From: Accumulibacter sp. | GTDB taxonomy: Bacteria; Pseudomonadota; Gammaproteobacteria; Burkholderiales; Rhodocyclaceae | Direction: 5' to 3' | Assembly (NCBI GenBank): GCA_024235715.1 | Contig: JACKLW010000007.1 | Location: forward strand, 62,001 to 126,000 | Length of the DNA: 64,000 nt | Part shown: positions 39,709 to 62,870 of the stretch, piece by piece | Layout: every line of letters begins with the position of its first letter | Position numbering within the stretch: position 1 is the stretch's first letter | Program-made: the position numbers and the translations under genes | The notes under the pieces: generated by a model | Seen by the model: the letters and a program-made list of their open reading frames with translations, nothing else | Told to the model about the DNA's origin: nothing | The model's database searches: none

Positions 39709-39724
39709 TGGGCGCTAGCGCACA
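39709..39724. promoter_or_regulatory. dyad operator between Crp/Fnr copy 1 and the SnoaL-like gene
   Basis: TGGGCG-CTAG-CGCACA matches 11 of the 12 fixed positions of TGTNCG-N4-CGNACA. GA follows on the plus side, and CAGAC is readable on the minus side too, so the site could serve both divergent genes (39564 minus, 39915 plus). Confidence 0.6.
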
Positions 39725-39914
39725 GAACAGCGCTGCCACGCGCTGCGTGCGGCGCGGCGGGAGCGGCAGTACTAGCGATGCTATCCGGCAAATCGCGACC
39801 CATGCCGGCCCAAACTCGGCGATTGACGGCTGCACCCGGCGTCAGCCATACTCCCCGAAGGCTCGTTGTATTTCCTATCCTTTATGGTCCAACCGACCCG
39901 AGAAAGGCGCTGCA

Positions 39915-40316
39915 ATGACGAGGAACGAGTCGGCCAAGGTCGAAGACATGTGCCGCAAGTACGTGACCGCCCTGCAACATGGTGATATCGAGGCACTGCT
40001 CGAACTCTTCTCCGACGAGGCGAGCGCCACTTCACCGATTTCCGGCAGGCAGCTCGCGCGCGACTTCTATGCCTACGTTATGCGGGTGACGAGCGCTCGT
40101 TCGATCGTGATCAAGACGATCTTCATCGGCACTTCCGAGCCGCTTCGGGCGGCGATCCACCTTGCCTACACGCGCACGGTCGGAAACGGTGAGCCGGCCA
40201 CAATCGAGGGCGTCGATGTTTTCGAGTTGAGCAAGGACGGTGACAAGTTCGACGGGGTGACGATCATCTACGACACCGCGCCGGTGCGGGTCGACTTCGA
40301 CCCGCGAGGGGCGTAG
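39915..40316 (+). CDS. SnoaL/ketosteroid-isomerase-like (NTF2 superfamily) protein
   Basis: 133 residues from ATG 39915, with GAGAAAGG upstream. The pattern VEDMCRKYVTALQHGDIEALLELFSDEA is the N-terminal helix pair of the SnoaL-like cone fold, and GVDVFELSKDGDKFDGVTIIYD matches the C-terminal strands. The ligand or reaction is unknown. The frame is open to 39747, but those codons are not protein-like. Divergent from the first Crp/Fnr gene. Confidence 0.75.
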   Translation: MTRNESAKVEDMCRKYVTALQHGDIEALLELFSDEASATSPISGRQLARDFYAYVMRVTSARSIVIKTIFIGTSEPLRAAIHLAYTRTVGNGEPATIEGVDVFELSKDGDKFDGVTIIYDTAPVRVDFDPRGA

Positions 40317-40350
40317 CGCTTCGGCCCGCGAAGCACGCAGGCGCGCGGAC

Positions 40351-42555
40351 ATGGTTCGATCGGCGGACACCTCCATGTCGGACAAATCACCCGCAGCGCT
40401 GTCGGTGTGGCCCGTTGCGGCTGCTGGGGCGCTGGGCATCCTGGCGGGCTTGTTCCTGGGCGACTACGCGCAAGTGTTTCGTCCGGTGGGCAAGGCCTAC
40501 GTGCTCATGCTCGAGGTCGCGGTCTATCCGTACCTGATCTGCTCGCTGCTGCATGGTCTGGGCAGCATGTCGCCCGCGGGCGCTCTGAAGTTGTTCAGGC
40601 TCGGGTGGAAGTTCTACGCTGCACTGTGGATCGTGACCTTCGCGGTTCTCGTTGCGCTCTCCATGGGAATTCCCGCGGCGATGCCCACGAGTCTGGAGCC
40701 TCGAGCCGAGACGGCGGCCGGCCCGGACCTGCTGACGCTATTGATTCCCAGCGACCCCTTTGCCTCGCTGTCGATGAACTACGTGCCGGCGGTGGTGCTG
40801 TTCTGCTTCTTCTTCGGGATCGCGCTGCAGCACGTTCGGGAGAAGACGGAACTGTTGTCGGTGCTGGAGAGCATTCGCCTTACCAGTCTGCAGTTCTGGA
40901 ATGCAGTCGTCCGCTTTGCGCCCCTCGCCGTGTTCGCGCTGTTTGCCGATCTCGCGGGCACGCTTCACCTCCGAGGCCTCGAAGAGCTGTCCATCTATTT
41001 CCTTCTGCTCTTTGCAGGTTGCCTGATCCTCGCCTTCTGGATCTTGCCGGCATGCATCTCGATCTTCGTCCCGGTCAAGCACACCGAGATCGTGCGAGAT
41101 CTGCGCTCGGCCTTCCTGATCGTCGTCGCGACGACCCTTTCCGTCTCGGCGCTGCCTTACATCAGCGCGGCGACCGAGCGGCTCGCCAAGGCCAGCGGTG
41201 CCGACGGGCCCGACATGGCCAATGTCATCCGCACCAACCTTGCCGTGGCCTATCCGCTGGGCCAGCTCGGCAATTTCTTCGTCTACCTGTTCATCCTGTT
41301 CGCGATGTTCCGCTTCGGCGTGGCGCCCGACCCGTCCGTCGCGGTCGCGCTCCCGCTGGTCTCGCTGCTGTCCGGCATCGGCTCGCCGACCTCGTCGGTG
41401 GATGCGGTGGATTTCCTGTCGAAATGGTTGGGGCTGCCTTCGCAGACCACCGCGCTCTATGTGAGCCTGATGACCCTGACGCGCTATGGTCAGGTGGTCG
41501 TGTCGGTGGCCGGGTTTGCGTTCCTGAGCTTCGGCGTCACCCTTGCCTACGGCGGAAAGCTGCAGTTGCGCTGGCGTCGGTTGTCGTGGGTGCTCATTGC
41601 GCCAGCGGCCATCCTCGCGCTGTGCATCGTCGGCGCCCGCGGTTTCGGCGCCTGGTTGCTCGATGATTCGCCCGACCCCTATCTGGCACTGGCACTCGAT
41701 CCTGCACTCACCAGGGGCGTTGCGGTCTCGGTCGATGCGCCAGCCAAGGCGCCTGTGGTCACAGAAACGAGGGTGCTGGCCCGCATTCAGCGATCAGGCG
41801 AGCTGCGGGTGGGCTACAACGACAACATCATGCCGTTCTGCTATCGGAACGCTGCCGGCGAACTGGTTGGCTACGACGTGGCCCATGCCTACCAACTGGC
41901 GCGGGATCTCAACGTCGCCCTCGCGTTCGTCCGCTTCGACTGGGGCGACCTGGCGTCGGATCTGAAGTCGGGTCGCATCGACATCGCGATGACGGGCGTC
42001 TACGTGACCGACGAGCGCCTGCTCGATTTGACGGTTTCGACGCCGTACTTCCAGAGCCCGCTCGCGCTTTTCATGCCGCGTCAACGCGCTCAGGGCTTCA
42101 AGACCCGTTCCGACCTTCTCGAGCGCAGCGGGTTGAGGATCGGCGTCTATGACTCACCCGTGCTGGTGCCGAGGTTGAAGCGGACGTTCCCCAATGCCGA
42201 AATCGTGACGACGCTCGAATACCGCAACGGCGCCCTACCGGATTTCGCGAGGATCGATGCCGCGCTGTGGACGCTGGTCCAGGCCAAGGCCCTGGCGGTG
42301 TCCAATCCAGATCTGATCGCCGTGGCGCCTGCGGATGCTGGCAATCCGTATCTGTTCGCCTACATCATGCCGCCCGGCGCCGATGAGTTTTCCAAGTTCG
42401 TGAACTACTGGCTGGAACTCAAGAAAGCGGATGGATTCGAGCGGCGCCAGCGCGAATATTGGATCGATTTGCTGCCGCCAATCCCACCCGAGCCCCGGTG
42501 GTCGGTTTTGAGGAACATGCTTGGCTTTCACAGGAAGGCGGAGGCGGACCGCTAA
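40351..42555 (+). CDS. dicarboxylate symporter (SDF/DctA-type) fused to a periplasmic solute-binding domain
   Basis: 734 residues; ATG 40351 and ATG 40375 are both possible starts. Residues ~15-440 hold about eight to ten hydrophobic segments of the sodium/proton:dicarboxylate symporter fold, including PLGQLGNFFVYLFILFAMF and SLLSGIGSPTSSVDAVDFL. From about residue 473 (RIQRSGELRVGYNDNIMPF) to 705 it is a family 3 periplasmic binding domain with YDVAHAYQLARDL and SGRIDIAMTGVYVTDER. The two modules normally belong to different transporter classes. It probably binds an organic or amino acid outside and passes it to its own symporter. Confidence 0.85.
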   Translation: MVRSADTSMSDKSPAALSVWPVAAAGALGILAGLFLGDYAQVFRPVGKAYVLMLEVAVYPYLICSLLHGLGSMSPAGALKLFRLGWKFYAALWIVTFAVLVALSMGIPAAMPTSLEPRAETAAGPDLLTLLIPSDPFASLSMNYVPAVVLFCFFFGIALQHVREKTELLSVLESIRLTSLQFWNAVVRFAPLAVFALFADLAGTLHLRGLEELSIYFLLLFAGCLILAFWILPACISIFVPVKHTEIVRDLRSAFLIVVATTLSVSALPYISAATERLAKASGADGPDMANVIRTNLAVAYPLGQLGNFFVYLFILFAMFRFGVAPDPSVAVALPLVSLLSGIGSPTSSVDAVDFLSKWLGLPSQTTALYVSLMTLTRYGQVVVSVAGFAFLSFGVTLAYGGKLQLRWRRLSWVLIAPAAILALCIVGARGFGAWLLDDSPDPYLALALDPALTRGVAVSVDAPAKAPVVTETRVLARIQRSGELRVGYNDNIMPFCYRNAAGELVGYDVAHAYQLARDLNVALAFVRFDWGDLASDLKSGRIDIAMTGVYVTDERLLDLTVSTPYFQSPLALFMPRQRAQGFKTRSDLLERSGLRIGVYDSPVLVPRLKRTFPNAEIVTTLEYRNGALPDFARIDAALWTLVQAKALAVSNPDLIAVAPADAGNPYLFAYIMPPGADEFSKFVNYWLELKKADGFERRQREYWIDLLPPIPPEPRWSVLRNMLGFHRKAEADR

Positions 42556-42739
42556 AGCCTCGGTGAGCCACTGCAGCCCAGGTGCGGCCTTTTGGAGGTC
42601 TGGGCCTATCCGCCTCCTTGGGGCGCCGGCGGGCCGGCGGTAAACCTGCTGCGGCTGACCAGCGGCGCGAAGATTGCAAGCCGGCTGCCAAGAAGCCGAC
42701 GCTCGCGGGAGCGATTGTGACGGCACCCGATCCTTCGGT

Positions 42740-43489
42740 CTACCAGGCGATCACCTCGGGGAGCAGGCGCTCGAACTCCTTTCTGACCACCGCGTAGCAC
42801 TCGCAGCAGCGCGCTTCAAGGCGCGCCCGGTCGAGTATCGTGATGCGCCCGCGCTGATAGGCGATCAGGCCGGCCCGCTGTAAATTGCCGGCGGCCTCGG
42901 TAACGCCTTCGCGGCGCACGCCGAGCATGTTGGCGATCAGTTCCTGCGTCATGACCAGCTCGTTCGAGGGCAGGCGGTCGATTGAGAGCAGCAGCCAGCG
43001 GCACAGCTGCTGGTCGAGCGAATGGTGGCGGTTGCATACCGCCGTCTGTGCCATCTGCGTCAGCAGCGCCTGGGTGTAGCGCAGCAACAGGCGCTGCATC
43101 GGGCCGGCGCGATAGAACTCATCCTTGAGCAATTGCCCCTTCAGGCGGTAGGCGTGGCCGGCGCTTTGCACAACCGCGCGGCTTGACGTCGTTTCGCCGC
43201 CCATGAACAGGGACACGCCGACGATCCCCTCGTTGCCGACGACGGCGATTTCAGCCGATGAGCCGTCCTCCATGACATAGAGCAGGGACACGATCGAGGT
43301 GGTGGGGAAATAGACGTGGCGCATCTGGACGCCAGACTCGTACAGCGCCGCGGCGAGCGGCATCGGGACCAGTTCCAGGTTGGGAACGAGGCGCGCGCAC
43401 TCATCCGCCGGCAGGGCGGCGAGCAGGTGGTTCTGGCGCGGGTCATGCGTGTCAGCCGGCCTGGCAGGCAATTGAGCGATCGACGGCAT
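42740..43489 (-). CDS. Crp/Fnr-family transcriptional regulator (copy 2)
   Basis: 249 residues from ATG 43489, preceded by GGGAGA at good spacing; ATG 43507 is in frame but has no site. It has the same architecture as copy 1: beta roll with RHVYFPTTSIVSLLYVMEDG and VVGNEGIVGVSLF, then winged helix with IANMLGVRREGVTEAA. No CRP-type cAMP pocket motif is obvious. The TGTACG-TCAG-CGTACA dyad at 43589 lies 100 bp upstream, suggesting autoregulation. I propose it, or copy 1, binds the repeated operator of this region (inference). Confidence 0.9.
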   Translation of the reverse strand: MPSIAQLPARPADTHDPRQNHLLAALPADECARLVPNLELVPMPLAAALYESGVQMRHVYFPTTSIVSLLYVMEDGSSAEIAVVGNEGIVGVSLFMGGETTSSRAVVQSAGHAYRLKGQLLKDEFYRAGPMQRLLLRYTQALLTQMAQTAVCNRHHSLDQQLCRWLLLSIDRLPSNELVMTQELIANMLGVRREGVTEAAGNLQRAGLIAYQRGRITILDRARLEARCCECYAVVRKEFERLLPEVIAW

Positions 43490-43588
43490 GGCGGTTCTCC
43501 CATTCATAAGTAGTGGTCGGGCGACCTCGTCGATGCGCTCGCATCGGCCATTCGTGGTGTATTGAGTATACGCGCCTCGTACCGGCGA

Positions 43589-43604
43589 TGTACGTCAGCG
43601 TACA
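43589..43604 (+). promoter_or_regulatory. dyad operator, perfect match
   Basis: TGTACG-TCAG-CGTACA is a perfect inverted repeat (12 of 12 fixed positions) followed by GACGAC. It lies between the second Crp/Fnr gene (minus, 100 bp) and the 96-residue gene at 43721 (plus, 117 bp). Confidence 0.7.
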
Positions 43605-43720
43605 GACGACAGCAGGCGTTCGGCGCAGGCTCTGCACGCTCATGGCAGGAAGCGGGATCGGTCTCACTCGCGGCAGCGGCGTTGCCTGTCTTCAATTGTC
43701 ATCCAGTCACCGGAACACGC

Positions 43721-44011
43721 ATGGACAACCATCAACTCACTATCGAAGTGGCTCAGGAGTTTCATCGGCGCATGGAGGCGATCATCGTTGCCGTCCAGGC
43801 AGGGATGTGGAAGAACGGTGTGCACGACCTGCTCGGCTACGCGACCGACTTCGCCGTCGGCGAGGCACGCGGACGGCAGACCCTGGTCCTGAAGAGCCGC
43901 AGCCGTTCGAGCTATTTGCGGCTTCAATGGGCTACCGTTCTCGGCGACGGGCCCGCTGATCGACAACTCGTCGACGACGCCGTTGCGAGCGCGATCAACG
44001 AACTGGCTTGA
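43721..44011 (+). CDS. hypothetical protein, 96 aa
   Basis: Starts at ATG 43721 (MDNHQLTIEVAQEFHRRM). Mixed alpha/beta composition with no signal peptide or transmembrane helix; charged C-terminal half. I do not recognise the family. Its codon use matches the region, and the perfect dyad operator 117 bp upstream supports it being a real regulated gene. Upstream in-frame codons to 43562 are poor. Confidence 0.55.
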   Translation: MDNHQLTIEVAQEFHRRMEAIIVAVQAGMWKNGVHDLLGYATDFAVGEARGRQTLVLKSRSRSSYLRLQWATVLGDGPADRQLVDDAVASAINELA

Positions 44012-44301
44012 CCGCTTGCGGCCGCCGCACCTGCGCGGCAGCGCCGTGCCCAGGAGCGCCCGGAGAACGTGCTGAAGCCGGTGGCTGACGGGTGGCAGCG
44101 AGCGATCGCCCAGAGTACAGTCCAGGCCGCCGCCTCGATCTCGGGGTGGCAGGTAGCCGGGTCGCCACCCGATGTCGTGTCTTTCCGCACAGCTCGGGCA
44201 AGAGGAACGCGCAGCCTCGGCGCGGCATTCCTCCTGCATTGGCGCAATGCCCGCGATTCGCGCCGTTTGGCACGCGCGGGCACCCTGTCTGGCTGCGCCT
44301 G

Positions 44302-44317
44302 TGTGCGCTGGCGAACA
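44302..44317 (+). promoter_or_regulatory. dyad operator upstream of osmB-like lipoprotein gene
   Basis: TGTGCG-CTGG-CGAACA (12 of 12) followed by GAG, 195 bp before ATG 44512. The rest of the spacer 44012-44511 holds nothing I can support. Confidence 0.65.
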
Positions 44318-44511
44318 GAGCGCCAAAGCGCTCGTGCGTAAGCTCGTGTTTTCCGGGCCGGCAAATCCTCGGCGTTTGTGCCTTGGCGATGCGTGACGAT
44401 TGATAGCAGCGCCCTGGCGAACCGAACTGTTTGCCCGGCAAGTCGCCAGCCGTCGTGAAGTATGCGCTGCTTCACGGAGACACCATGTTCAACCAGGCAA
44501 GGAGCAAGCTC

Positions 44512-44730
44512 ATGAAGACGATTCGCAGAGTTGCGTTCAGTTCACTCGCCGTAGCCGTGCTTTTCGGCCCTGGCGGTTGTGCGGAGATGTCGGCGCAGGA
44601 CAAGAGCACCAGCATTGACGCTGGCGCCGACGCTATCGGCGTAGCCAATCTTCCCGACGGCAGCAGCGTCGGAACTGTTGGCGGCGCACCTGTTGGCGGG
44701 GTGATCGGCCACGACGTAGGCAAGAAGTGA
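44512..44730 (+). CDS. OsmB-like small lipoprotein
   Basis: 72 residues from ATG 44512 (AAGGAG 6 nt upstream). A signal peptide ends in the lipobox GPGGC, giving a lipid-modified Cys near residue 22. The C terminus DGSSVGTVGGAPVGGVIGH matches the end of OsmB-type lipoproteins. The first glycine zipper, normally AIGAGAGA, is degraded here to SIDAGADAIG. Probably an envelope osmotic-stress protein. A second, IS-interrupted paralogue is at 58309. Confidence 0.75.
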   Translation: MKTIRRVAFSSLAVAVLFGPGGCAEMSAQDKSTSIDAGADAIGVANLPDGSSVGTVGGAPVGGVIGHDVGKK

Positions 44731-44869
44731 TGCGCAGCGCGATGCGGCTCGCTTCTCCGGCTGGACTCTCGCGCCCGCTCGTTACCCTGATCCCGCAGTC
44801 GACGCGACGCACATGGTCGCTCCCGTTGCGGGCCAATCGATTTACCAGAATCACCAGGAGGTATCAGAG

Positions 44870-45064
44870 ATGAAACACGGCGGATCAATTGGCACAGCCT
44901 TGCTCATGAGCGCGCTGCTCATCGCACTGCCCGGCTGCCAGAAGCAGGAAGGCCCGGCCGAACAAGCCGGAAAGGAAATGGACAAGGCGGTAGAGAAGGC
45001 TGGACAGCAGATCGAGAAGGCCGGTGGCGCCATTCAGGACGCTGCCAAGGGCGACAAGCAATAG
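44870..45064 (+). CDS. small lipoprotein with helical repeat
   Basis: 64 residues from ATG 44870 with GGAGG. Signal peptide and lipobox ALPGC, then a charged amphipathic helix with repeated GKEMDKAVEKAGQQIEKAGG units. It resembles the N-terminal half of the BON lipoprotein at 60156-60584, which has the same GPAEQAGK/GPAESAGK segment after the Cys. Function unknown; likely periplasmic stress. Confidence 0.7.
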   Translation: MKHGGSIGTALLMSALLIALPGCQKQEGPAEQAGKEMDKAVEKAGQQIEKAGGAIQDAAKGDKQ

Positions 45065-45282: not shown

Positions 45283-45298
45283 TGTTCGCTGGCGTAAA
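45283..45298 (+). promoter_or_regulatory. dyad operator upstream of the collagen-like gene
   Basis: TGTTCG-CTGG-CGTAAA (11 of 12) followed by GAG, 220 bp upstream of ATG 45519. The rest of 45065-45518 contains no gene I can support. Confidence 0.55.
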
Positions 45299-45518
45299 GA
45301 GCCGGCTGCAAGGCACGCGTAGTCTCCTTGAAAACGGCGAGGCGCAGAATTGGCGTACTCCTGGCGGCGGCATTTGCAAGTCGGCTGCTGATCCGCTGCC
45401 GTAGCGGCGATGGCCTGATCTGCCGACGCTGATTGATTCCATCGGGAAGTGATCAATAAAGGGGGATTGCTCGTCGTGAGGTGGGTAGTGGTCGCACGCC
45501 CAACCCAAGGAATTACCA

Positions 45519-48189: not shown

Positions 48190-48264
48190 CTAGCGAAGCC
48201 CGAAGAACGACAGGACGAAGAGAACGATGACGACTAGACCGACGAGATAAATGATGCTGTTCAT
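48190..48264 (-). CDS. 24-residue single-helix membrane protein
   Basis: ATG 48264 follows an excellent GGAGGAAA site. The product begins MNSIIYLVGLVVIVL and ends SFFGLR, a single hydrophobic helix with a C-terminal Arg. Very similar tiny proteins are widespread in proteobacteria near stress genes, by my recognition. Function unknown. The dyad operator at 48362 lies ~100 bp upstream. Confidence 0.7.
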   Translation of the reverse strand: MNSIIYLVGLVVIVLFVLSFFGLR

Positions 48265-48361: not shown

Positions 48362-48377
48362 TGTACGTTGCCGCACA
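48362..48377 (-). promoter_or_regulatory. dyad operator for the 24-residue gene
   Basis: On the minus strand it reads TGTGCG-GCAA-CGTACA (12 of 12) followed by GAG, pointing at the small minus-strand gene at 48264. Confidence 0.65.
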
Positions 48378-48528: not shown

Positions 48529-48544
48529 CGTGTGCTACCGAACA
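48529..48544 (+). promoter_or_regulatory. dyad operator for the 48677 gene
   Basis: CGTGTG-CTAC-CGAACA (10 of 12; the left half is shifted) followed by GACGAC, 133 bp upstream of ATG 48677. Together with the site at 48362 it makes a divergent pair in one 412-bp spacer. Confidence 0.5.
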
Positions 48545-48676: not shown

Positions 48677-49099
48677 ATGAACAACAAATTTCTAGTCCAG
48701 GGCCTGCTGATCACTGCGATGACCTTTGGGTCGTTTGTGACCTATGCCGGAGCTGATGACGGACCCATCGTCCACCAGACGGGTGGTTTGCCCTATGTGT
48801 CGGGCGGGGTGGGCGAGGAGTCGCTGCAGCGGCTCAGAGACCAAGCCAGCGAGTTCAACCTGAAGCTGGTATTCGCCATGAACTCGGGAGCATTCCTGAG
48901 CAACGTGCGGGTTAGCATCGCTGACGCAAAGGGCAAGACGCTCCTCGAGGCTGTCTCCGATGGACCGTGGTTCCTGGCGAAATTGCCGGTGGGCAAGTAT
49001 CGGGTGGTCGCAACTTATGCAGGCAAAGCGATCGAGCGGTCCATCGCCGTCGACCGCTCAGCGCTCAGAACGGCCGATTTCCGTTGGGAGCATGAGTAA
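48677..49099 (+). CDS. exported protein with carboxypeptidase-regulatory-like (beta-sandwich) region
   Basis: 140 residues from ATG 48677 (GGAG upstream). Signal peptide of ~25 residues ending TYAGA. The mature part has the pattern FLSNVRVSIADAKGKTLLEA, GPWFLAKLPVGKYRVVATYAGK, which is the strand arrangement of carboxypeptidase regulatory-like domains. Probably a periplasmic protein of unknown partner. Long upstream open codons (to 48251) are not coding. Confidence 0.7.
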   Translation: MNNKFLVQGLLITAMTFGSFVTYAGADDGPIVHQTGGLPYVSGGVGEESLQRLRDQASEFNLKLVFAMNSGAFLSNVRVSIADAKGKTLLEAVSDGPWFLAKLPVGKYRVVATYAGKAIERSIAVDRSALRTADFRWEHE

Positions 49100-50626: not shown

Positions 50627-51115
50627 TCACACGCTCTTCTTCGACATAGAGGCCATCGAGTTGGCGATTCTGGCCGTTACGTCACCAGCCACTTTGGTGT
50701 TGGCATCCGTCATGTCGGTAATCTGCTTCGCAAAGCCCTTGAACTGTTCGAAGCCCTTGAGCCACCCCGCGCTGGGGGTTGAACCCTCGCCATGCGGAGA
50801 GAAGTAGGATGCCATGAGATTACTGACCTCTTTCTGCGTTTCGGCGGCGATGTCCTGCACCCCCTTGAGGTAGGCGGCGGCGTTGTTGGTCGCCGTTCCA
50901 GCCGCGCTCGCCGGCGGATTCTGCTGCTGCTTCGCGTCTTTGGTCTGGCTCAAGGAGCCGACGGCGGCGGTGCCGCCTTCCAAGGCAGCGCGCGTCGCAT
51001 TGAGGTTCAGGGTGGCCAAACGTTCAACGTTGGAAAACGCCAGTTTCGATAACGTCATGAAGGCTTTGGCGTTGATCTCGGCGGCGCCGATCAGGTCCGG
51101 GCTGGCAGAAGGCAT
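50627..51115 (-). CDS. phaP: phasin-family protein (PHA granule-associated)
   Basis: 162 residues with a TAGGAG site. INAKAFMTLSKLAFSNVERLATLNLNATRA is the phasin-2 N-terminal helix, and AAAYLKGVQDIAAETQKEVSNLM is the second helix; the middle is Gln/Ala-rich. Phasins coat polyhydroxyalkanoate granules and control their number and size. This supports a PHA-storing host. The spacer 51116-51446 upstream contains only a weak dyad match at 51430-51445 (8 of 12). Confidence 0.85.
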   Translation of the reverse strand: MPSASPDLIGAAEINAKAFMTLSKLAFSNVERLATLNLNATRAALEGGTAAVGSLSQTKDAKQQQNPPASAAGTATNNAAAYLKGVQDIAAETQKEVSNLMASYFSPHGEGSTPSAGWLKGFEQFKGFAKQITDMTDANTKVAGDVTARIANSMASMSKKSV

Positions 51116-51446
51116 GGTGTTGCTCCTATGGGGAATGAAAATAGGAACTCAGCGGTACTGGTATGCCCCCTTTGAACAGCGGTTCAGACAACCACGAACT
51201 CTGAATCCCAAGAGCAGCTTAGGAGAAAAATTCCACAGACACTGTTGGCTGGCGTACATAGCGGCAGACTTTTCATTCCTTCTTTACTGCCAGGGGAAGG
51301 CAGCGATCACCCCTATCAGTCGGTCGGGCCGGTTGCAAACTGCCTTCCCTGAGGCGTCCAATCTTAGGCCGATCACGTTATTCAATCGCGCCGCGTGTTT
51401 TCCCGCGATACGTCGTCTCAAGTGCCGTCTGGGCGTTGGCGATGCA

Positions 51447-54168: not shown

Positions 54169-54372
54169 CTACGGTTTCAAGGCATCCTTGATCGCGTCCT
54201 TGGCATCTTCGAGGTTCTCTTTCAGGTCGCCGAAATGTTCCTGCGCCTTGCCTTCAGCCTGGTGTTTCAGGCCCTTTGCCTGCTGCTTCTTTCTGCCCAT
54301 GAGTTTGCCGACCTCTTCCTGAATCTTGCCGCCCACGTCTTTTGCTGCGCCCTTGACTTGATCTTTGTTCAT
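54169..54372 (-). CDS. CsbD-family stress protein (copy 2)
   Basis: 67 residues with an AGGAG site. MNKDQVKGAAKDVGGKIQEE then a Lys/Glu-rich helix, ending LEDAKDAIKDALKP. This is the shorter, more hydrophilic CsbD subtype than the other two copies. Operator 54506 lies 134 bp upstream. Confidence 0.85.
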   Translation of the reverse strand: MNKDQVKGAAKDVGGKIQEEVGKLMGRKKQQAKGLKHQAEGKAQEHFGDLKENLEDAKDAIKDALKP

Positions 54373-54505: not shown

Positions 54506-54521
54506 TGTGCGCTGGCCGACA
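54506..54521 (-). promoter_or_regulatory. dyad operator for CsbD copy 2
   Basis: On the minus strand TGTCGG-CCAG-CGCACA (11 of 12) followed by GAAC, pointing at the minus-strand CsbD gene. Confidence 0.6.
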
Positions 54522-54827: not shown

Positions 54828-54843
54828 TGTGCGCTGTCGTACA
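54828..54843 (+). promoter_or_regulatory. dyad operator upstream of the 55003 ORF
   Basis: TGTGCG-CTGT-CGTACA (12 of 12) followed by GGCGG, 160 bp before ATG 55003. With the site at 54506 it forms a divergent pair. Apart from these two sites, 54373-55002 shows nothing I can support. Confidence 0.6.
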
Positions 54844-55002: not shown

Positions 55003-55200
55003 ATGACCAGCTATAGACGCTTCATCGGTTTCATGTCGCCGCCTGCGCCCACGGGCGACGCGGCGTTTCTTGCACGCTTCGCAACGCTCGCAGTCCGTCG
55101 TCCCGGCGAGTTGGCAAAAAGTCGACAGGAGGCAGCTCTCGTCGACTGCGCAGAGGAACGCGGCCCGACGGTGTCCGGCGTCGGGGCGAAACGCTCGTGA
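55003..55200 (+). CDS. small hypothetical protein, possibly a decayed gene
   Basis: 65 residues beginning MTSYRRFIGFMSPPAP, with AAAGGA upstream. The leader resembles that at 49738 (MASSRRFTDFIPSPPP), which precedes the 49849 gene, and the DNA just before both ATGs is similar. The remainder is not obviously protein-like. It may be the 5' remnant of a lost stress gene. Confidence 0.4.
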   Translation: MTSYRRFIGFMSPPAPTGDAAFLARFATLAVRRPGELAKSRQEAALVDCAEERGPTVSGVGAKRS

Positions 55201-55295: not shown

Positions 55296-55311
55296 TGTGT
55301 GTCAGCGAACA
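55296..55311 (+). promoter_or_regulatory. dyad operator upstream of the 55460 pseudogene / GlsB / BON cluster
   Basis: TGTGTG-TCAG-CGAACA (11 of 12) followed by GACCG, 164 bp before the GTG at 55460. It could drive the three-gene run to 56408. Confidence 0.6.
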
Positions 55312-55701: not shown

Positions 55702-55806
55702 CGCAGGCTGCGCAACCCGGTGTGGAGATGCTTCAGCGGCTTTTGGGCCCAGCCGCTGGATACTGGAAATGGTGTGGCCCGACAGCTGCAGATACAGGAG
55801 GAAAAC

Positions 55807-56097
55807 ATGTCGTTACTGCTATGGAGCGTACTTGGACTGATCGCCGGGCTCATCGCCAGCAATCTGGTTGCCGGAACTGCGCGGCCTGCCGTCATGGATG
55901 TCGTCGTTGGGGTTGTCGGCGCAGTGGTCGGTGGCTGGTTCTTCAACACCTTCGGGACCGCTGCTGTAGGCGGATTCAAACTCTACAGCCTGCTTGTCGC
56001 CGTCGTCGGCGCAGGTGCGCTGCTGCTGGTCTACCACGCGGTCTTGCGTAGTCTTCGGGAAGCTCTGTTCAACCTCGATCTGGAGAATGAATCATGA
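55807..56097 (+). CDS. GlsB/YeaQ/YmgE (transglycosylase-associated) family membrane protein
   Basis: 96 residues from ATG 55807 with a strong AGGAGG site. Three hydrophobic segments: LLLWSVLGLIAGLIASNLV, VVVGVVGAVVGGWFFN and LLVAVVGAGALLLVY, with Gly-rich helix packing. This inner-membrane family is general-stress induced and of unknown biochemical role. ATGA overlap with the BON lipoprotein. Confidence 0.8.
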   Translation: MSLLLWSVLGLIAGLIASNLVAGTARPAVMDVVVGVVGAVVGGWFFNTFGTAAVGGFKLYSLLVAVVGAGALLLVYHAVLRSLREALFNLDLENES

Positions 56098-56408
56098 AAA
56101 TTCTTGGCAAGTATCTTTCCGCGCTCTTCCTGGCCGTAACGCTGGTCTCCGCCGCGGGTTGCGTGTCAAGCTCGAAGCAGGAGGGGGCCGGTGAGTACGT
56201 GGACGACAGCGTCATCACCAGCAAGGTGAAAGCGGCCATCTTCAACGAGCCCAGCCTGAAGTCCGCCGAGATCAACGTCGAGACCTTCAAGGGGGCGGTT
56301 CAACTGAGCGGCTTCGTGAGTTCGCAGGCCGCGATCAGTAAAGCGCTTGAGGTGGCACGCGCCGTCGGCGGCGTAAGCTCGGTCAAGAACGACATGCGGG
56401 TCAAGTGA
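56094..56408 (+). CDS. BON-domain lipoprotein (copy 1)
   Basis: 104 residues. Signal peptide with lipobox SAAGC, then one BON domain: DDSVITSKVKAAIFNEPSLKSAEINVETFKGAVQLSGFV and a Gly-containing C-terminal strand. BON domains bind membranes or ligands in the periplasm; OsmY-like. Co-translated with the GlsB-type gene. Confidence 0.88.
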   Translation: MKILGKYLSALFLAVTLVSAAGCVSSSKQEGAGEYVDDSVITSKVKAAIFNEPSLKSAEINVETFKGAVQLSGFVSSQAAISKALEVARAVGGVSSVKNDMRVK

Positions 56409-56947
56409 GGAGGGATGGCAAGACGGCAATTCGCGGCCACCGCCGGGCGCCGTCATCCGGTGGTGGTCGTGACCCGTCTGCCTCAATCGAAACAACTTCC
56501 ACGCCCGAGCCGACGGGTGTGGGAGAATGGCGCGCGATCACCCGCCGATCACCTGCTGCAGCACCCCGCGTGCTAGCGATGCCGTCGTGTTTGCCTGCCT
56601 CGCCATCCACCGCGAATCGCGATGCGCAGTCTCGGGCCACCGACGACCACGGCGTGCGGCGCTACCCCGCCCACGCTCCGCGTCGCGCTGGGCCGGCAGG
56701 AACTGGCACTGACCTCGATCGCCACCATAGCCGCGGTCTTCGCACCGGAATGGGCACAGCTTTATTTCATCACCCTGTTGCTCGGCTTGAAGATCTCCAA
56801 CCGATGGGTGACTTCCCCGGCGTGTGAGATATGAGCGCCAGCGCACAGAAAAAGTCCCGAGCTTCAGTAATTATTGTCTCCATGGTCGGCAATCCGAAAC
56901 GGAGTGGCCGATAGGTGGTGTGTTTTTAATGGTGCTGGAGTCTCGAT
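56409..56947. other. intergenic region containing a dyad operator (56832-56847)
   Basis: 539 bp. TGAGCG-CCAG-CGCACA at 56832-56847 (11 of 12) followed by GA lies 101 bp before ATG 56948. No supported gene in the rest; open frames are Arg/Pro-rich and unconvincing. Confidence 0.5.
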
Positions 56948-57427
56948 ATGAAAATGAATACAGGTATTGGTGGTGCGCTGACAATGATCGCTGCCCTGAC
57001 ACTTGGCGCGTGCACGAATCTGCAGTCTTCGCCGTATCTCCCGAATGACGGTGGTGCCGGATCGAGCTATAACCATCCGGGGTATGGCGTCGTGCAATCA
57101 ATTGACGTTGTGCAACAGGAGAATTCCGGTGGCGGGAGCGACATCGGCTTGGGCACCATCGCCGGCGCCTTGATCGGTGGCGTTGTCGGTAACCAGATTG
57201 GTGGCGGCCGTGGTAAAACCGTTGCGACAGTCGCCGGTGTGGCAGGCGGCGCCTATGCAGGCCATGAACTTGAAAAGAAAAACCGGCAGCAACAGACGGT
57301 CGATGCGTACAAAATCACGGTGCGCATGGATGACGGTTCTTATCAGGCATTGATGCAAGACACCAATAGCAATTTCCGCGTCGGTGATCGGGTACGGTAT
57401 GAAAATGGCAATCTGTACCGTTATTGA
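56948..57427 (+). CDS. SlyB/Pcp-like glycine-zipper 2TM outer-membrane lipoprotein
   Basis: 159 residues from ATG 56948 (GGAG). Signal peptide with lipobox TLGAC; glycine zipper LGTIAGALIGGVVGNQIGGG and a second helix VAGVAGGAYAGHELEKK; C-terminal domain YKITVRMDDGSYQAL and VGDRVRYENGNLYRY. Matches the SlyB/PCP family, which stabilises the outer membrane under stress. Base composition is lower in GC than the first half of the window. Confidence 0.88.
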   Translation: MKMNTGIGGALTMIAALTLGACTNLQSSPYLPNDGGAGSSYNHPGYGVVQSIDVVQQENSGGGSDIGLGTIAGALIGGVVGNQIGGGRGKTVATVAGVAGGAYAGHELEKKNRQQQTVDAYKITVRMDDGSYQALMQDTNSNFRVGDRVRYENGNLYRY

Positions 57428-57932: not shown

Positions 57933-57961
57933 AGCTGCGCCCGGAAATTGAATGTCGTTTG

Positions 57962-57977
57962 TGTGCGTCAGCAAACA
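57962..57977 (+). promoter_or_regulatory. dyad operator upstream of 58151/osmB
   Basis: TGTGCG-TCAG-CAAACA (11 of 12) followed by GACGG, 189 bp before ATG 58151. Confidence 0.6.
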
Positions 57978-58150
57978 GACGGTGAATCTCGTACACACCA
58001 ACTTGTTGCCATCGGAGTCAGCAATGGTGTGATTCATGCGCCGTGGCAATAGGCGTGGCGTATACCAGCGTGTTTCTGACAAAGACAAGTGCCTGCACGG
58101 CAAGACTTGTCGAACCATCACATCCATTTTCATCACATGAAGGAACAAAA

Positions 58151-58312
58151 ATGAATACGTTCAACATCAAAGCCGTCGCAATCGCAATCAGCATGACATT
58201 CAGTGCGGGCGCCATGGCAGAAGCCATATCGAAGAGCGAATACAAGGCCGGCAAAGACAAGATCGCGATCGAATCAGGTAACACCATATCTACAAAAGAG
58301 GTAAGTCCATGA
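58151..58312 (+). CDS. small exported protein, likely C-terminally truncated
   Basis: 53 residues from ATG 58151 (AAGGAA). Signal peptide ending SAGAMA, then ISKSEYKAGKDKIAIE. That segment resembles the start of a longer secreted Lys-rich family I recall from Burkholderiales and Rhodocyclales, which goes on for ~60-100 more residues. Here it ends abruptly, in ATGA overlap with the osmB-like gene, so an internal deletion is likely. Confidence 0.5.
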   Translation: MNTFNIKAVAIAISMTFSAGAMAEAISKSEYKAGKDKIAIESGNTISTKEVSP

Positions 58313-58430
58313 AAACGAATCAAAGAATTACGCTAGGTGCTGTTGTGGCGATGTTTCTCCTCGGTTTGGGGGGATGTGCCGGGATGTCGAATCAGGACAA
58401 GAACACGGCCATTGGCGCCGGCGCTGGTGC

Positions 58431-58438
58431 CGTAGGTG
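58431..58438. repeat. target-site duplication of the ISL3 element (left copy)
   Basis: CGTAGGTG, repeated exactly at 59900-59907 on the other side of the element. Confidence 0.85.
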
Positions 58439-59899
58439 GGCTCTATGTCGTTTCGTGTGGAACGGGCGCTGGTTTTGGCGGTTTGAGGGGGCGGTGATGT
58501 CAAGGGCGGACGCAGTCCGGGCGAAGCCGAACCCTTTACATCGCTGCCCGCTCGCTTACGCTTCCTCCGGGCCGAGGAAGGCAGTCTGCCGCCCTCGGCA
58601 TGGAGGACAATAGCGGCCTTTTCCGTTGCGACTGGTTCCGGATGATTGAAACGCTGTTCACCCAGGCTCTGGGTCTCGTTGCTCCTTGGCAGGTCGATGA
58701 AGTCATCTTCAAGCCGGAGTGCGGACGGATCGACTTCGAGGTCCGATTTGGCGCGGCCGTCCACGCCTGTCCGGCCTGTGGTGCGGCGGCGCAGCCGCTG
58801 CACGACCGCTTGGCGCGCTCTTGGCGCCATCTGGATTTCTTCCAGTACGAAGCCCACCTGCATGCCGAGGTGCCCCGAGTAGCCTGTGCCGGTTGTGGCA
58901 AGGTGACGCAGGTCGCCGTGCCCTGGGCGCGTGAAGGCAGTGGCTTCACCCTGCTGTTCGAGGCCTTGACACTGATGCTGGCGCCGACCATGTCGGTCCT
59001 TGCCGCCGGCCGACCGCTGCGCGTGCGCAGTCGCCGACTGTGGCGCGTGATCAATCATCATGTGGGCCGGGCGCGCGCCCAGGAAAGTCATGCCAGGGTT
59101 CGCGCGATCGGCGTCGATGAGACCGCGAGCAAGCGCGGTCAGATGTACATCTCTGTTTTTTATGACCTCGACGCACAGCGTCTGCTGTTCGCGACGCCGG
59201 GCCGGGACAAGGCCACGCTCGGGAAGTTCGCCAGCGACCTGAGGGCGCATGGTGGCCAGCCCACCGCGATTACCCATGTCAGCATGGACATGAGCGGCTC
59301 GTTTCAGGCCGGCGCCGCCGCGCACTTTCCGGCAGCCGAGGTCTGCTTTGACCGCTTTCACGTCGTTGCTCTGAGCAGCACGGCGCTGGACGAGGTGCGG
59401 CGCGCCGAGGTCAAGAGCGCACCCGAACTCAAAGGCACCCGCTGGGGCCTGCACAAGAAACCCGCCGACTGGACCGTCAAGCAAACCGACACCATGCACT
59501 GGTTGCAGCGCTCGAACCTCAAGACCGCACGGGCTTGGCGGATCAAGCAGGCGCTGCGCTCCATCTACCTCACGGCCACCACACCTGCCGAGGCTCAGCC
59601 CTTGCTCAAGCGCTGGCTCAGCTGGGCCAGCCGCTGCCCACTGGAACCCTTCAAGCGCCTCGGTAGAACCATCACCAAGCATCTCCCTGGCGTCCTCAAC
59701 GGCTTCCAGACAGGCAAACACAACGGCCGTGTCGAGGCGATGAATCGAGCCCTTCAGGAGGCTCGCGCAAGGGCACGCGGCTATCGCCGCGTCGAAAACT
59801 TCATCGCCATGGCCTACCTCATCGCCGGGAAACTCACTCACTTGCCCGCTTCTCCGTTCGCCCAATTCTCGCTCGTTCCACACAAAACGACCTAAACCC
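58439..59899 (+). mobile_element. ISL3-family insertion sequence, complete
   Basis: 1461 bp. The left end GGCTCTATGTCGTTTCGTGT and the reverse complement of the right end GGGTTTAGGTCGTTTTGTGT form imperfect inverted repeats of ~30 bp, both continuing into GGAACG. An 8-bp direct repeat CGTAGGTG flanks it (58431-58438 and 59900-59907), the size expected for ISL3. It carries one transposase gene. Confidence 0.9.
58642..59895 (+). CDS. ISL3-family transposase
   Basis: 417 residues from ATG 58642 (MIETLFTQALGL); ATG 58600 would add 14. An N-terminal zinc ribbon has CPACG and CAGCGKV. The DDE catalytic residues lie in AIGVDETASKRG, VSMDMSGSFQAG and a C-terminal GRVEAMNRALQEARARARGYRR. The gene ends 4 bp before the element's right end. 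Full length, likely active. Confidence 0.92.
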   Translation: MIETLFTQALGLVAPWQVDEVIFKPECGRIDFEVRFGAAVHACPACGAAAQPLHDRLARSWRHLDFFQYEAHLHAEVPRVACAGCGKVTQVAVPWAREGSGFTLLFEALTLMLAPTMSVLAAGRPLRVRSRRLWRVINHHVGRARAQESHARVRAIGVDETASKRGQMYISVFYDLDAQRLLFATPGRDKATLGKFASDLRAHGGQPTAITHVSMDMSGSFQAGAAAHFPAAEVCFDRFHVVALSSTALDEVRRAEVKSAPELKGTRWGLHKKPADWTVKQTDTMHWLQRSNLKTARAWRIKQALRSIYLTATTPAEAQPLLKRWLSWASRCPLEPFKRLGRTITKHLPGVLNGFQTGKHNGRVEAMNRALQEARARARGYRRVENFIAMAYLIAGKLTHLPASPFAQFSLVPHKTT

Positions 59900-60155
59900 C
59901 GTAGGTGGTGCCGTGCTGACGGGTGGTAGTGCGATTGGAACGGTCGGTGGCGCTGCGGTTGGTGGCGTCATCGGTCACGAAGTCAGCAAATAGTAGGGTT
60001 TGGTAATCGTTTACGTGTGACGCGCCTGATGACAGCTGCGTCACACGTGAGCATTGGTTCAACCGGAACCGACATGCAGTTGCGCAAAACTTGTCTCGTG
60101 ATCGGCGCTTTGAAAATTCATCGTGATCTCCAAACTGCTCTAAGACCAATCACGT

Positions 60156-60584
60156 TTATTTGGCCAGCTTGATAACCAGCTCGTTCTGCACTTCTTTAAC
60201 GCCAGGCACCGCTGCGGCCAATGCTTTTGCCTTGTCACTGTTTGCGGGAGAGTCAGCCGAGCCACTGAGAGTCACTACGCCTTGTACAGTATCCACACTG
60301 ATTTGCAGCGTGTCGAGACCTGGTTCTGCAAAAATCCCTGCTTTGACCTTGGCCGTGATTTCAGTATCGTCGATGGCTATACCCGCTTTTTCACTTTGAT
60401 CGCCGACTTTTGCGCCGATCTTGTCGACTGCTGCGTCAACTTGCTTACCGGCACTAGCTGCCGTCTGGTCAATTTGCTTTCCTGCACTTTCCGCAGGTCC
60501 TGGCTGTTTTGTGTCGCATCCGGCAAGCCCCGCAACGAGTAGCAGTGAAATACCCAGCACTCTGAAATTGATGATAGTTGTCAT
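60156..60584 (-). CDS. BON-domain lipoprotein (copy 2)
   Basis: 142 residues with an AAAGGAA site. Signal peptide with lipobox LAGC, a helical linker with repeated GKQIDQTAASAGKQVDAAVDKI units like the lipoprotein at 44870, then a BON domain: DDTEITAKVKAGIFAEPGLDTL and GVVTLSGSADSP. OsmY-like periplasmic stress protein. A degenerate dyad (9 of 12) lies at 60698-60713, 115 bp upstream. Spacers 59994-60155 and 60585-60777 hold nothing else. Confidence 0.88.
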   Translation of the reverse strand: MTTIINFRVLGISLLLVAGLAGCDTKQPGPAESAGKQIDQTAASAGKQVDAAVDKIGAKVGDQSEKAGIAIDDTEITAKVKAGIFAEPGLDTLQISVDTVQGVVTLSGSADSPANSDKAKALAAAVPGVKEVQNELVIKLAK

Positions 60585-60777
60585 TTTATTTCCTTTGAGA
60601 GATGAATCATGTCGTTAATAATAATCTCCGGATTCGATTGGCGTGTCTTATCCGGCCTTCCGCCCATCGCACTATCCCACGTCCCCTCAGCGTCTTCAGT
60701 GCATTACTGAACAGGGTCTGCAGACGGACGGGTTTCAACCTCGGTGTTGGCGATTCAGTGCAGATCAAATGAACACG

Positions 60778-60936
60778 CTATATCCTGCCCATCAGCAACA
60801 GAACAAGAAGGATCACAACTGCCATGCCAAGACCACCGCTTGGACCATAACCCCATCCCCGACTATGGGGCCAGGTCGGGATGGCGCCAATAAGCATGAA
60901 TACCAGAACGATCAGCAGTATTGTTCCCAATGACAT
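60778..60936 (-). CDS. DUF3309-family small membrane protein
   Basis: 52 residues from ATG 60936 with GGAGGAGG. MSLGTILLIVLVFMLIGAIP, a central WPHSRGWGYGPSGG loop and a second helix ending LLLLMGRI are the DUF3309 pattern. Function unknown; often beside stress genes. Operator 61106 lies ~170 bp upstream. Confidence 0.85.
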   Translation of the reverse strand: MSLGTILLIVLVFMLIGAIPTWPHSRGWGYGPSGGLGMAVVILLVLLLMGRI

Positions 60937-61105
60937 TTGATGCCTCCTCCAGTTGATTTTGGTCACACGGTGTCAGAGAATAAAGTGTTTCCAGTCGCCC
61001 TTTCGAAGCGCTGTTTCCTTGTCGGAGTAGACGATGATCGCTATCGATACCGGCAGTCAACGCCACGTCCTTGCCCGACATGCTACTCAAGCACGACGGG
61101 CTGTC

Positions 61106-61121
61106 TGTTCGCTAGGACACA
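61106..61121 (-). promoter_or_regulatory. dyad operator for the DUF3309 gene
   Basis: On the minus strand TGTGTC-CTAG-CGAACA (10 of 12) followed by GACAG, pointing at the minus-strand gene at 60936. Confidence 0.5.
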
Positions 61122-61140
61122 CTGGACAAAAGGGTGCAGG

Positions 61141-61156
61141 AGTACGCTTGCGTACC
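61141..61156 (+). promoter_or_regulatory. dyad operator cut off from its gene by IS4
   Basis: AGTACG-CTTG-CGTACC (10 of 12; GTACGC and GCGTAC form a perfect inner palindrome) followed by GACAG. The IS4-family element inserts 60 bp downstream, so any plus-strand target is now separated. Confidence 0.45.
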
Positions 61157-61206
61157 GACAGCTGGTCTGGAGAGGACCAGGAGAAAGAGCAACGGAAGGT
61201 CGTGTG

Positions 61207-61216
61207 CGGTGAAGCC
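61207..61216. repeat. target-site duplication of the IS4 element (left copy)
   Basis: CGGTGAAGCC, repeated exactly at 62631-62640. Confidence 0.85.
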
Positions 61217-61243
61217 CAATGCTCTCAACTTACCAGAACATAG

Positions 61244-62347
61244 TCATATTCCATTTTTGTAAGCGTGGGATAGATGGGGCTTTTGAGTGAAGTTTCTGGG
61301 GTATGACCGGTCTGGTTTTATGCGGACGAGGTTCTTGATGAGTTCGTCGAAGACGGAGGTGATATTTTCGAGAGCATCTCGACCCTGGAGGAGCCAGCGT
61401 CCGAGGGTACGTTTGATACGAGAGAAGGCGTCGCCGCGGTTGATGAAGTAACGTGCGCAGATGTTGGGATCGAGAGATTCACTGGCGGCGTGGACGGCCA
61501 GAGCATTGATGTTGTCGCAGAGGATTTTAGCGCTGAAGTCTTGTTGTGCGGCCAGCCAGGACATGCCCGAGAGTTGCTCCAGTGCCAGACGGTGCTTGAT
61601 CCGTTTGAACGCCTCCTCGATTCGCCACCGAGAGTGATAGAGGCCCCCGAACGCGGCGGCGGGGAAGGCGTTCATGTCGAGGAGCGAGGTGACGAGGACG
61701 CGCACCTTGTGGCCGAACACCTGGCGAATGAGGCGAACTTCGCTCGGCGTGGCGGCGATTTCGTAGTCGAGCGCGTCCTGTTTGCAGGGGGCTGGCAGCA
61801 TCACAACCTGCTCGGCCAAGCCCGATCGGCGGAATGCTTGGATAGCGCTGAAATTGAGGCTATCGGCCCGCATGCAGAAATGGCGTTCTCGCTGCAACAA
61901 GACGGCGAAGAGCCAGTAGGCCGGATAACCTCGGTCGAGTACCAGGATGTCATTGGAACGGAGCTTGCCGAGGTGTTCGAAGAGCATCTGACGCTCGCCG
62001 GTGTTGGGGGAATAGAGCTTGGCAGCCAGGGTCATTTCGATACCGGGCAGATAGAGCGCGAAGCCAATGGCGTCGACTATGTGGCGGACGAATCGCTTGC
62101 CGTCACGGGTCTTCCCGAAGAGGGTCAAGCGCAGGACTGTGGCATCACCGGCGACGACGCGCAGGCCGTACCAGAGGGGAAAGCCGAACTGCGCATCGAC
62201 CAAGGCCAGGAAATGATCGTTGAGGACCTCAAAGGCTGCGACCGACACCTGCATTCGGGCTTTGGCAAAGGCCTGCGCCGAGACTTCTCGCATCAGATCG
62301 GCGCGGTTGGCCAGGTTGGCAAAGAACGCGTCCAGTTCCGACTGCAC
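61244..62347 (-). CDS. IS4-family transposase, N terminus uncertain
   Basis: 367 residues from GTG 62347. DDE residues are seen in VVAGDATVLRL, DILVLDRGYPAYW and YHSRWRIEEAFKRIKHRL (the IS4 YREK-type segment). Homologous-looking sequence continues upstream in the same frame (LTEKAFSRTGVLSFPRLIACLL) for ~55 codons with no start codon. The nearest ATG, 62496, is in another frame and joins only across an A6/T6 run at 62458-62463. So the gene is either frameshifted or uses ribosomal slippage. Confidence 0.85.
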   Translation of the reverse strand: MQSELDAFFANLANRADLMREVSAQAFAKARMQVSVAAFEVLNDHFLALVDAQFGFPLWYGLRVVAGDATVLRLTLFGKTRDGKRFVRHIVDAIGFALYLPGIEMTLAAKLYSPNTGERQMLFEHLGKLRSNDILVLDRGYPAYWLFAVLLQRERHFCMRADSLNFSAIQAFRRSGLAEQVVMLPAPCKQDALDYEIAATPSEVRLIRQVFGHKVRVLVTSLLDMNAFPAAAFGGLYHSRWRIEEAFKRIKHRLALEQLSGMSWLAAQQDFSAKILCDNINALAVHAASESLDPNICARYFINRGDAFSRIKRTLGRWLLQGRDALENITSVFDELIKNLVRIKPDRSYPRNFTQKPHLSHAYKNGI

Positions 62348-62522
62348 TTTGGAGGTGTATCCGCCGAGCAGGCAGGCAATCAGGCGGGGGAAACTGAGGA
62401 CACCTGTTCGTGAGAACGCTTTTTCTGTCAGACGCGACTTGACGAAAAAAGCGTGAGAAAAAAGGAAGTTAGAAAATGAGTTAACGACGTTGACATAAAG
62501 ATCGCTGCATATAAAATTTTAC

Positions 62523-62545
62523 ATCCGTATCAATGGGATACGGAT
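62523..62545. other. hairpin just inside the IS4 right end
   Basis: ATCCGTAT (62523-62530) and ATACGGAT (62538-62545) with a 7-nt loop lie upstream of the transposase. Such hairpins in IS4-type elements limit read-through transcription into the transposase; here that is inference. Confidence 0.5.
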
Positions 62546-62854
62546 TCTGCCGGGAGCCTTCCAGGCGCGCAACCCGTTTCTTTATTTGCTGATCGAATTA
62601 TGACAATGGCGCGCTAGGTTGGGAGCATTGCGGTGAAGCCCCGCTTACCCGCTCGATTGCAATGCAGTGCTCGTTTCTGCAGTTGTGACGGCCTGCCAAC
62701 TACAAGCCGTCGTCAGCAGGCGTGATGACTGGGGAAATGGCTGCAACCCATGGCTATGTCGAAATGACGAGGGGACAGCTGTTGAAAGACAGAACAAACG
62801 TAGTCGGCGATCCCGACATGCTGGTCAAGGAAGCAGTAGATTTTTCCTTGATTG

Positions 62855-62870
62855 TGTTCGCCAGCGCACA
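62855..62870 (+). promoter_or_regulatory. dyad operator upstream of CsbD copy 3
   Basis: TGTTCG-CCAG-CGCACA (12 of 12) followed by GACGG, 114 bp before ATG 62984. The rest of 62631-62983 holds no gene I can support. Confidence 0.65.

Follow-up and report, generated by a model that had tools for sequence, protein, structure and literature searches.

The CRP protein recognises the site TGTGA-N6-TCACA, and FNR, FixK and Anr the site TTGAT-N4-ATCAA; the class II activator position, with the site centred at -41.5, is established for CRP and FNR. In Escherichia coli, stress genes of the OsmB and OsmY type are usually placed under sigma-S, and a C at position -8 of a promoter is associated with sigma-S preference. 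The DNA analysed here, referred to as the window, is a stretch of 64,000 nucleotides from Accumulibacter sp. (contig JACKLW010000007.1, positions 62,001 to 126,000), in which the 16-bp dyad TGTNCG-N4-CGNACA is repeated in the neighbourhood of regA, a gene for a Crp/Fnr-family regulator. The dyad is proposed, with a probability of about 0.86, to be the operator of RegA, which would act as a class II activator encoded within the cluster and drive small stress and envelope genes. The same motif stands at the same promoter distance in other bacteria carrying RegA. A previous reading of the letters of this DNA, called here the sequence-only reading, had singled out the repeat; two elements are added to it, a candidate regulator gene inside the stretch and a GA suffix that belongs to the -35 element and keeps a fixed distance from a -10.

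The dyad and its tie to regA

The sequence-only reading had listed fourteen copies of the dyad, matching 10-12 of 12 fixed positions. All fourteen are present where it placed them, but TGTNCG-N4-CGNACA contains only 10 fixed bases, and 12 can be reached only by scoring two Ns as matches. The real scores are 10/10 for five sites (43589, 44302, 48362, 54828 and 62855), 9/10 for six (39709, 45283, 54506, 55296, 56832 and 57962) and 8/10 for three (48529, 61106 and 61141). Loose matches, with up to two mismatches, are in weak excess over the whole window (56 against 40.6 expected, equalled by 2 of 100 shuffles). Exact copies are strongly clustered: counting these only, 13 occur in the 4.14-Mb genome and 7 of them lie inside about 20 kb of one contig, including an additional one at 126090 of contig C7, just beyond the end of the window. 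The other six exact copies have lower matrix scores (9.6-15.2) and may be chance matches.

The repeated motif is real. A position matrix was derived from 50 sites upstream of regA in other genomes (50 of the 78 loci with at least 300 bp upstream), the own genome being left out. On the window it gave 15 matches, all within 38-64 kb and none in 1-38 kb, while 200 column-permuted matrices gave a mean of 0.87 matches in 38-64 kb and a maximum of 7; it recovered 13 of the 14 listed sites, missing 61141, and added 51243 and 51571. The 50 sites of the matrix had been picked with the consensus of the sequence-only reading, and the blind palindrome count, the base columns of the GA-oriented sites and the -10 offset test, described below, are more independent tests.

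Since a candidate regulator lies within the cluster and sites are found upstream of regA (the exact site 43589, in its upstream spacer) and of a second Crp/Fnr-type gene, regB (39709), the motif was checked around regA elsewhere. The locus set comprised the best 80 of 584 regA relatives from public genomes, with flanks of up to 10 kb and approximate gene calls made by homology and longest reading frame. Computation ties the motif to regA in several ways. With a spacing of 4, the 80 loci hold 64 exact dyads, whereas none of twelve other spacings yields more than 4 (range 0-4), and TGTNCG is the best of 30 permutations of the half-site letters, the next best giving 9; 24 of the 64 dyads fall in the 500 bp before regA. 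A site of at least 9/10 is found in the 300 bp upstream of 50/78 regA relatives and in 73/1993 background windows. A blind count of gapped palindromes upstream of regA ranks TGTNCG with spacing 4 first (20/78 regions against 5/360 controls).

The tie extends to whole genomes. Among 200 genomes of the order, the 65 that have a regA relative average 3.23 sites made of the motif followed by GA and the 135 that have none average 0.55, while the reversed pattern shows no difference (0.29 and 0.32, respectively); all 17 order genomes with at least five such sites have a regA relative. In 369 genomes of the class, regA (E <= 1e-70) is present in 25 of the 31 that are positive for the composite promoter TGTNCGN4CGNACAGA-N19-TANNNT and in 14 of the 338 negative ones. 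Leaving out the own genome and one positive of the same order, 23 of 29 positive genomes carry regA.

Promoter geometry of the sites and the genes downstream

The dyad had been described as followed by GA or GG on its gene-proximal side. Among intergenic sites with a score of at least 17 and a single unambiguous target other than regA or regB, GA is indeed proximal in 32/40, but it also faces away in 10/40, as it can stand on both sides; without the own genome the values are 29/36 and 10/36. The sites of regA itself break the rule (proximal 5/17, away 6/17). Orienting 164 asymmetric sites by GA alone and tallying the sequence beyond it revealed an A at +30 from the dyad centre (127/164) and a T at +34 (128/164). 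Both occur together in 120/164 on the GA side and in 9/164 on the other side, with a mean of 6.7 at other offsets; the pair persists without the own genome (111/153) and after removal of sites whose flanks reach 60% identity (115/159), and is rarer where GA stands on both sides (23/66 sides) or on neither (18/62 sides).

The A...T pair fits two bases of a -10 hexamer spanning -12 to -7, which puts the dyad centre at -41.5. The GAC suffix then occupies -33 to -31 and corresponds to the GAC in TTGACA, separated from the -10 by a 17-bp spacer; the GA seen on the gene-proximal side is therefore part of the promoter, within the -35 element. The geometry of a class II promoter, a sigma-70-type -10 with the dyad at -41.5, is thus found in 120/164 sites, the start being placed from sequence. 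A search of the 369 class genomes with the gap of the composite left free at 17-21 gave 61 matches, against 7 for a reversed control: 41 have the predicted gap of 19, and 9, 7, 4 and 0 have gaps of 20, 21, 18 and 17, respectively (37/57 at the predicted gap without the own genome). The operator common to many promoters with CRP-like geometry that the sequence-only reading had envisaged is borne out by the 64 spacing-4 dyads of the regA loci and by this position at -41.5.

The -10 elements are poor: the full TAnnnT is present in only 60/164 contexts, and position -8 is most often C (62/118; C frequency in nearby sequence, 0.29). Such -10 elements fit activator dependence and also sigma-S preference. 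The dyad could instead be a repressor site that blocks RNA polymerase at -35, since at most GA-bearing sites (120/164) it covers part of the -35, where repressors sit too, and the own site of regA may repress regA. A repressor, however, would need no fixed spacing, whereas the single position found is that of class II activators, and -10 elements this poor, with C rather than A at -8, are expected of activator-dependent promoters; repression is considered improbable.

The outer letters of the dyad also fit TGT-N10-ACA, quoted as the consensus of NifA upstream activating sequences in a passage of PMC4999443, which would imply sigma-54 promoters. A sigma-54-like -24/-12 element was found within 250 bp downstream in 0/162 contexts; the upstream control gave 0/162 as well, so that the pattern is strict and the test weak. 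The stronger point is that NifA/sigma-54 systems show neither a -10 held at a single offset nor a tie to regA, and on these grounds the NifA explanation was rejected as extremely improbable. ECF-type promoters, found in 1/162 contexts, were likewise rejected.

The presence of two transposase genes among the copies would suit a dispersed repeat or the end of a mobile element. Nevertheless, the flanks are unrelated, as 159/164 sites remain when they must be under 60% identical; in other loci, related genes are again preceded by sites, and the only columns conserved outside the dyad are the GA side and the -10. A repeat extending past the dyad, which the sequence-only reading had named as an outcome that would speak against its operator, did not appear, and this origin of the copies is hardly credible.

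In the window, the A...T pair stands at the fixed distance on one side in 11 of the 15 matrix matches (39709, 43589, 44302, 45283, 48362, 51243, 54828, 55296, 56832, 57962 and 62855); the offset test took sites scoring at least 16, and 61106 (15.6) falls outside it. The sites and genes of the window, including open reading frames (ORFs), are the following.

38857-39579, minus strand: regB, second Crp/Fnr-type gene and predicted regA target (PF13545, 52.2 bits)
39709-39724, minus strand: operator, 9/10, upstream of regB, matrix score 22.9; -10-like hexamer CACGCT facing regB (minus side, offset 29)
42740-43507, minus strand: regA, Crp/Fnr-family regulator of 255 amino acids, proposed as the activator that reads the motif
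43589-43604, plus strand: exact operator in the spacer that separates regA from a divergent 96-amino-acid ORF (43721-44011, plus); -10-like CAGGCT at 43626-43631, directed away from regA
44302-44317, plus strand: exact operator before the OsmB-like gene; -10-like TAAGCT at 44339-44344
44431-44730, plus strand: OsmB-like lipoprotein (NCBIfam PRK10540 OsmB, 69.6 bits, under its cut-off of 98); the true start is likely an internal ATG
45283-45298, plus strand: operator, 9/10; -10-like TAGTCT at 45320-45325; putative downstream frame called collagen-like by the sequence-only reading
48362-48377, minus strand: exact operator before a 24-amino-acid hydrophobic ORF (48190-48264, minus); -10-like TAGCGT
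48529-48544, plus strand: operator, 8/10, before a carboxypeptidase-regulatory-like ORF (48677-49099, plus; PF13620, 22.8 bits, under cut-off); fixed-offset -10 absent
51243-51258, minus strand: operator, 9/10, beyond the earlier list, before a phasin gene (50627-51115, minus; PF09361, 53 bits); -10-like TAAGCT
51571: exact copy inside a Na/H-exchanger (antiporter) gene; fixed-offset -10 absent
54506-54521, minus strand: operator, 9/10, before a CsbD gene (54169-54372, minus; PF05532, 63.7 bits); TAGGCT one base past the usual offset
54828-54843, plus strand: exact operator with a GG suffix before a 65-amino-acid ORF (55003-55200, plus; no Pfam match); -10-like CACGCT
55296-55311, plus strand: operator, 9/10, before putative small ORFs and then transglycosylase-associated and BON genes (55720-56408, plus); -10-like TACGCT
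56832-56847, plus strand: operator, 9/10, before a glycine-zipper 2TM gene (56948-57427, plus; PF05433, 37 bits); -10-like AATTAT
57962-57977, plus strand: operator, 9/10, before a small ORF (58043-58312, plus; no Pfam match) and an OsmB-like ORF (58309-58497, plus); -10-like CAACTT
61106-61121, minus strand: weak copy, 8/10, score 15.6, without clear target
62855-62870, plus strand: exact operator before a CsbD gene (62924-63208, plus; 59.3 bits); -10-like TAGCCT at 62892-62897

The genes downstream were characterised from 120 composite promoters, 24 of which have no called downstream gene; the remaining 96 targets, whose automatic choice takes in some doubtful reading frames, comprise 8 from the own genome, left out, and 88 foreign ones, scanned with Pfam. 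The 88 proteins include HTH_Crp_2 (15), BON (11), glycine-zipper 2TM (9) and CsbD (2), none of which is among the families matched by at least two of 86 control genes that stem from the same loci (88 drawn, two being also targets), as judged from the 25 control families listed out of 147, which reach down to single members. Because regA-family genes were kept out of the control draw, the contrast for HTH_Crp_2 is unfair; that for BON and glycine-zipper proteins is fair, and both are enriched downstream. By sequence clusters, in the 80 loci and the own region, sites precede OsmB-like genes in 5/5 and 4/6 cases, a coiled-coil stress family in 3/3, phasins in 3/3, CsbD in 3/8 and DUF3309-like genes in 3/10, the names OsmB-like and stress coiled-coil being given by likeness to proteins of the window.

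Several of the targets named by the sequence-only reading reappear, the motif recurring in other genomes before BON, OsmB-like/glycine-zipper and CsbD genes, as it had suggested checking. DUF3309 (2/86) and DUF5670 (3/86) are not shown as specific targets, since both are present among the control genes. Its label of "envelope-stress" goes further than the data, for sites also precede the phasin gene, the second Crp/Fnr gene and many uncharacterised small proteins. The target set has a stress and envelope flavour, short of proving an envelope-stress response.

RegA and RegB as candidate readers of the dyad

RegA combines a C-terminal Crp-type helix-turn-helix (PF13545 HTH_Crp_2, 58.8 bits, cut-off 27) with an N-terminal cNMP-binding-type domain (PF00027 cNMP_binding, 31.1 bits, cut-off 27.5), and its profile alignment spans most of chains 4cyd and 4byy; its sequence similarity to solved Crp-family proteins is weak. 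RegB is 39% identical to RegA, the recognition helix being RRE in RegA and RRV in RegB. Residue 200 of RegA aligns with the E of the GlxR helix SRETV and was taken as the equivalent of CRP E181. Among 77 regA relatives, an upstream site accompanies E at this residue in 49/67 and S or P in 2/10 (Fisher 0.002), a hint that RegA itself would read the site. Seven relatives with the helix RRSGVTEAALKLQ (L129, L132, L138, L143, L148, L149 and L164) have no upstream site (0/7), and proteins with RRSGVTEAALKLQ may read a different operator; a de novo search for another motif upstream of the ten S/P-at-200 loci and five plasmid loci gave at best one present in only 2/15 regions. Cysteines C158, C169, C235 and C237 of RegA, which include those of a C-terminal CECY, are invariant in alignments of 20 and 43 sequences, and a redox or metal role is possible.

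In the proposed mechanism, a RegA dimer would bind TGTNCGN4CGNACA(GAC), centred at -41.5 and overlapping the -35 at most GA-bearing sites, with a weak -10 (A at -11, T at -7) after a 17-bp spacer, and would touch RNA polymerase directly in the manner of class II CRP/FNR-type activation. Upon a signal, RegA would switch on regB together with small stress and envelope genes, the proposed targets being regB and the genes for BON, OsmB-like and other glycine-zipper, CsbD and phasin proteins. Direct binding by RegA, activation and the stress role are inferred from sequence patterns.

Several observations weigh against RegA as the activator at these sites. The composite pattern, counted as exact match only, is missing from 14/39 class genomes with regA, and 6/31 class genomes with the pattern have no regA. 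An upstream site at score 14 is lacking in 26/77 regA relatives, 9 of which are Burkholderiaceae by title and the others scattered over many groups; in 5/12 plasmid loci there is no site nearby (all 12 plasmid loci together hold 19 matches, against 2 in reversed sequence). The link with residue 200 comes mostly from one helix type (RRS, 0/7 with site), in a statistic without phylogenetic correction, and 18/67 relatives with E at this residue also lack a site. Self-activation of regA is not supported, because the A...T pair of regA-upstream sites is seldom directed at regA (toward it in 4/50, away in 23/50, the upstream neighbour being divergent in 35/49). Finally, in the 80 loci and the own region, 91/268 sites lie inside called genes; the site density is nonetheless 6.6 times higher outside them, and an equal frequency within genes, which the sequence-only reading would have taken as refuting it, did not appear.

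It is also conceivable that RegB, or both paralogues in competition, reads the motif and that regA is merely one of the regulated genes. Genes of the regB family share the loci and have an upstream site (within 300 bp, score 14) in 24/35, and order genomes whose relatives all lie at or below 52% identity (n=13) have a mean of 1.54 sites, compared with 0.55 where there is no relative. However, 13 order genomes with regA (at least 65%) and without a listed relative of 51% or less average 3.31 sites, five of them having 5-9, so that regB is seemingly not needed for the sites; this tally ignored fragments under about 150 amino acids, G073 excepted. RegB has V at the E position of the RegA recognition helix. 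Moreover, the sites upstream of regB in other loci carry the A...T pair toward regB in 19 of 23 usable cases and away from it in 3, and regB thereby resembles a typical target. Reading by RegB is unlikely, and RegA is preferred as the activator.

More tentatively, and with the odds rather against it, RegA and RegB might form a two-step Crp/Fnr cascade, a dedicated stress or stationary-phase programme working through weak, sigma-S-like promoters (C at -8), partly mobile, in many Beta- and Gammaproteobacteria; if true, this would be a widespread general-stress switch overlooked so far. The analysis provides an operator, a candidate regulator and a promoter layout for a Crp/Fnr subfamily present in about one third of the order genomes (65/200), and proposes a control layout for many small stress genes of obscure regulation, such as those for CsbD, BON and OsmB-like proteins. 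Any genome can be searched for the composite pattern, and the regulon is thereby open to direct testing.

Genomic setting and relation to known systems

The cluster (38.6-64 kb) begins right after a tRNA-Ser gene (window 38503-38593) and contains transposase genes at 58600-59895 (ISL3 type) and 61244-62347 (DDE_Tnp_1); on account of this tRNA edge and the two transposase genes, it may be a genomic island. No further exact match to the final 16-25 bases of tRNA-Ser was found in the window, in about 38 kb beyond it or in loci L014 and L015, and Rfam matched only the tRNA in 38-64 kb. Between regB and regA, a sodium:dicarboxylate symporter domain is fused to a family 3 solute-binding domain (40351-42555).

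Plasmids and conjugative elements, pKLC102 among them, carry relatives of regA. Three such relatives (L166 9983-10702, L169 11989-12708 and L170 12037-12711), on Pseudomonas aeruginosa pKLC102 and on one plasmid each of Paraburkholderia and Acidovorax, lie near an 8.5-kb gene annotated GH94/'glucoamylase family', cyclic-glucan-synthase-like by size and name; a fatty acid desaturase gene is also near the regA relative on pKLC102 and on the Paraburkholderia plasmid. Composite promoters are bunched at 1.81-1.90 Mb of contig C1 in genome G281 (6/6 matches) and at 116-166 kb of C1 in G446 (6/7), and in G213 six are scattered across four contigs.

A description of the operator was not found in the open literature, a scope that leaves most subscription papers outside and an earlier prediction possible; the motif strings present in the portions of PMC9201469 and PMC12632255 that hold them are parts of primers. 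Compared with CRP, the arrangement shares the features of class II promoters, a 16-bp dyad ending in TGT/ACA and centred at -41.5 over the -35, and the Crp-type helix-turn-helix of RegA carries R and E where CRP has R180 and E181, which together with R185 appear among the CRP contact residues in the relevant part of PMC12531629. It differs in the half-site, TGTNCG instead of TGTGA, and in the place of R185, mostly E in the RegA family; the likening of RegA to CRP is by sequence and promoter layout, with the weak similarity to solved proteins given above. With FNR, FixK and Anr it shares the N4 centre, the class II position and the protein superfamily, whereas the half-site differs and RegA has no FNR-model match in NCBIfam at E <= 0.001, the only match being to NtcA, below cut-off. 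The targets are similar to the OsmB/OsmY-type genes of E. coli (OsmB-like, BON), as is the C at -8, but here a dedicated Crp/Fnr-type operator lies within the promoter. The dyad is most likely a Crp/Fnr operator of the class II activator type whose half-site is unusual, and it is apparently new within the literature searched.

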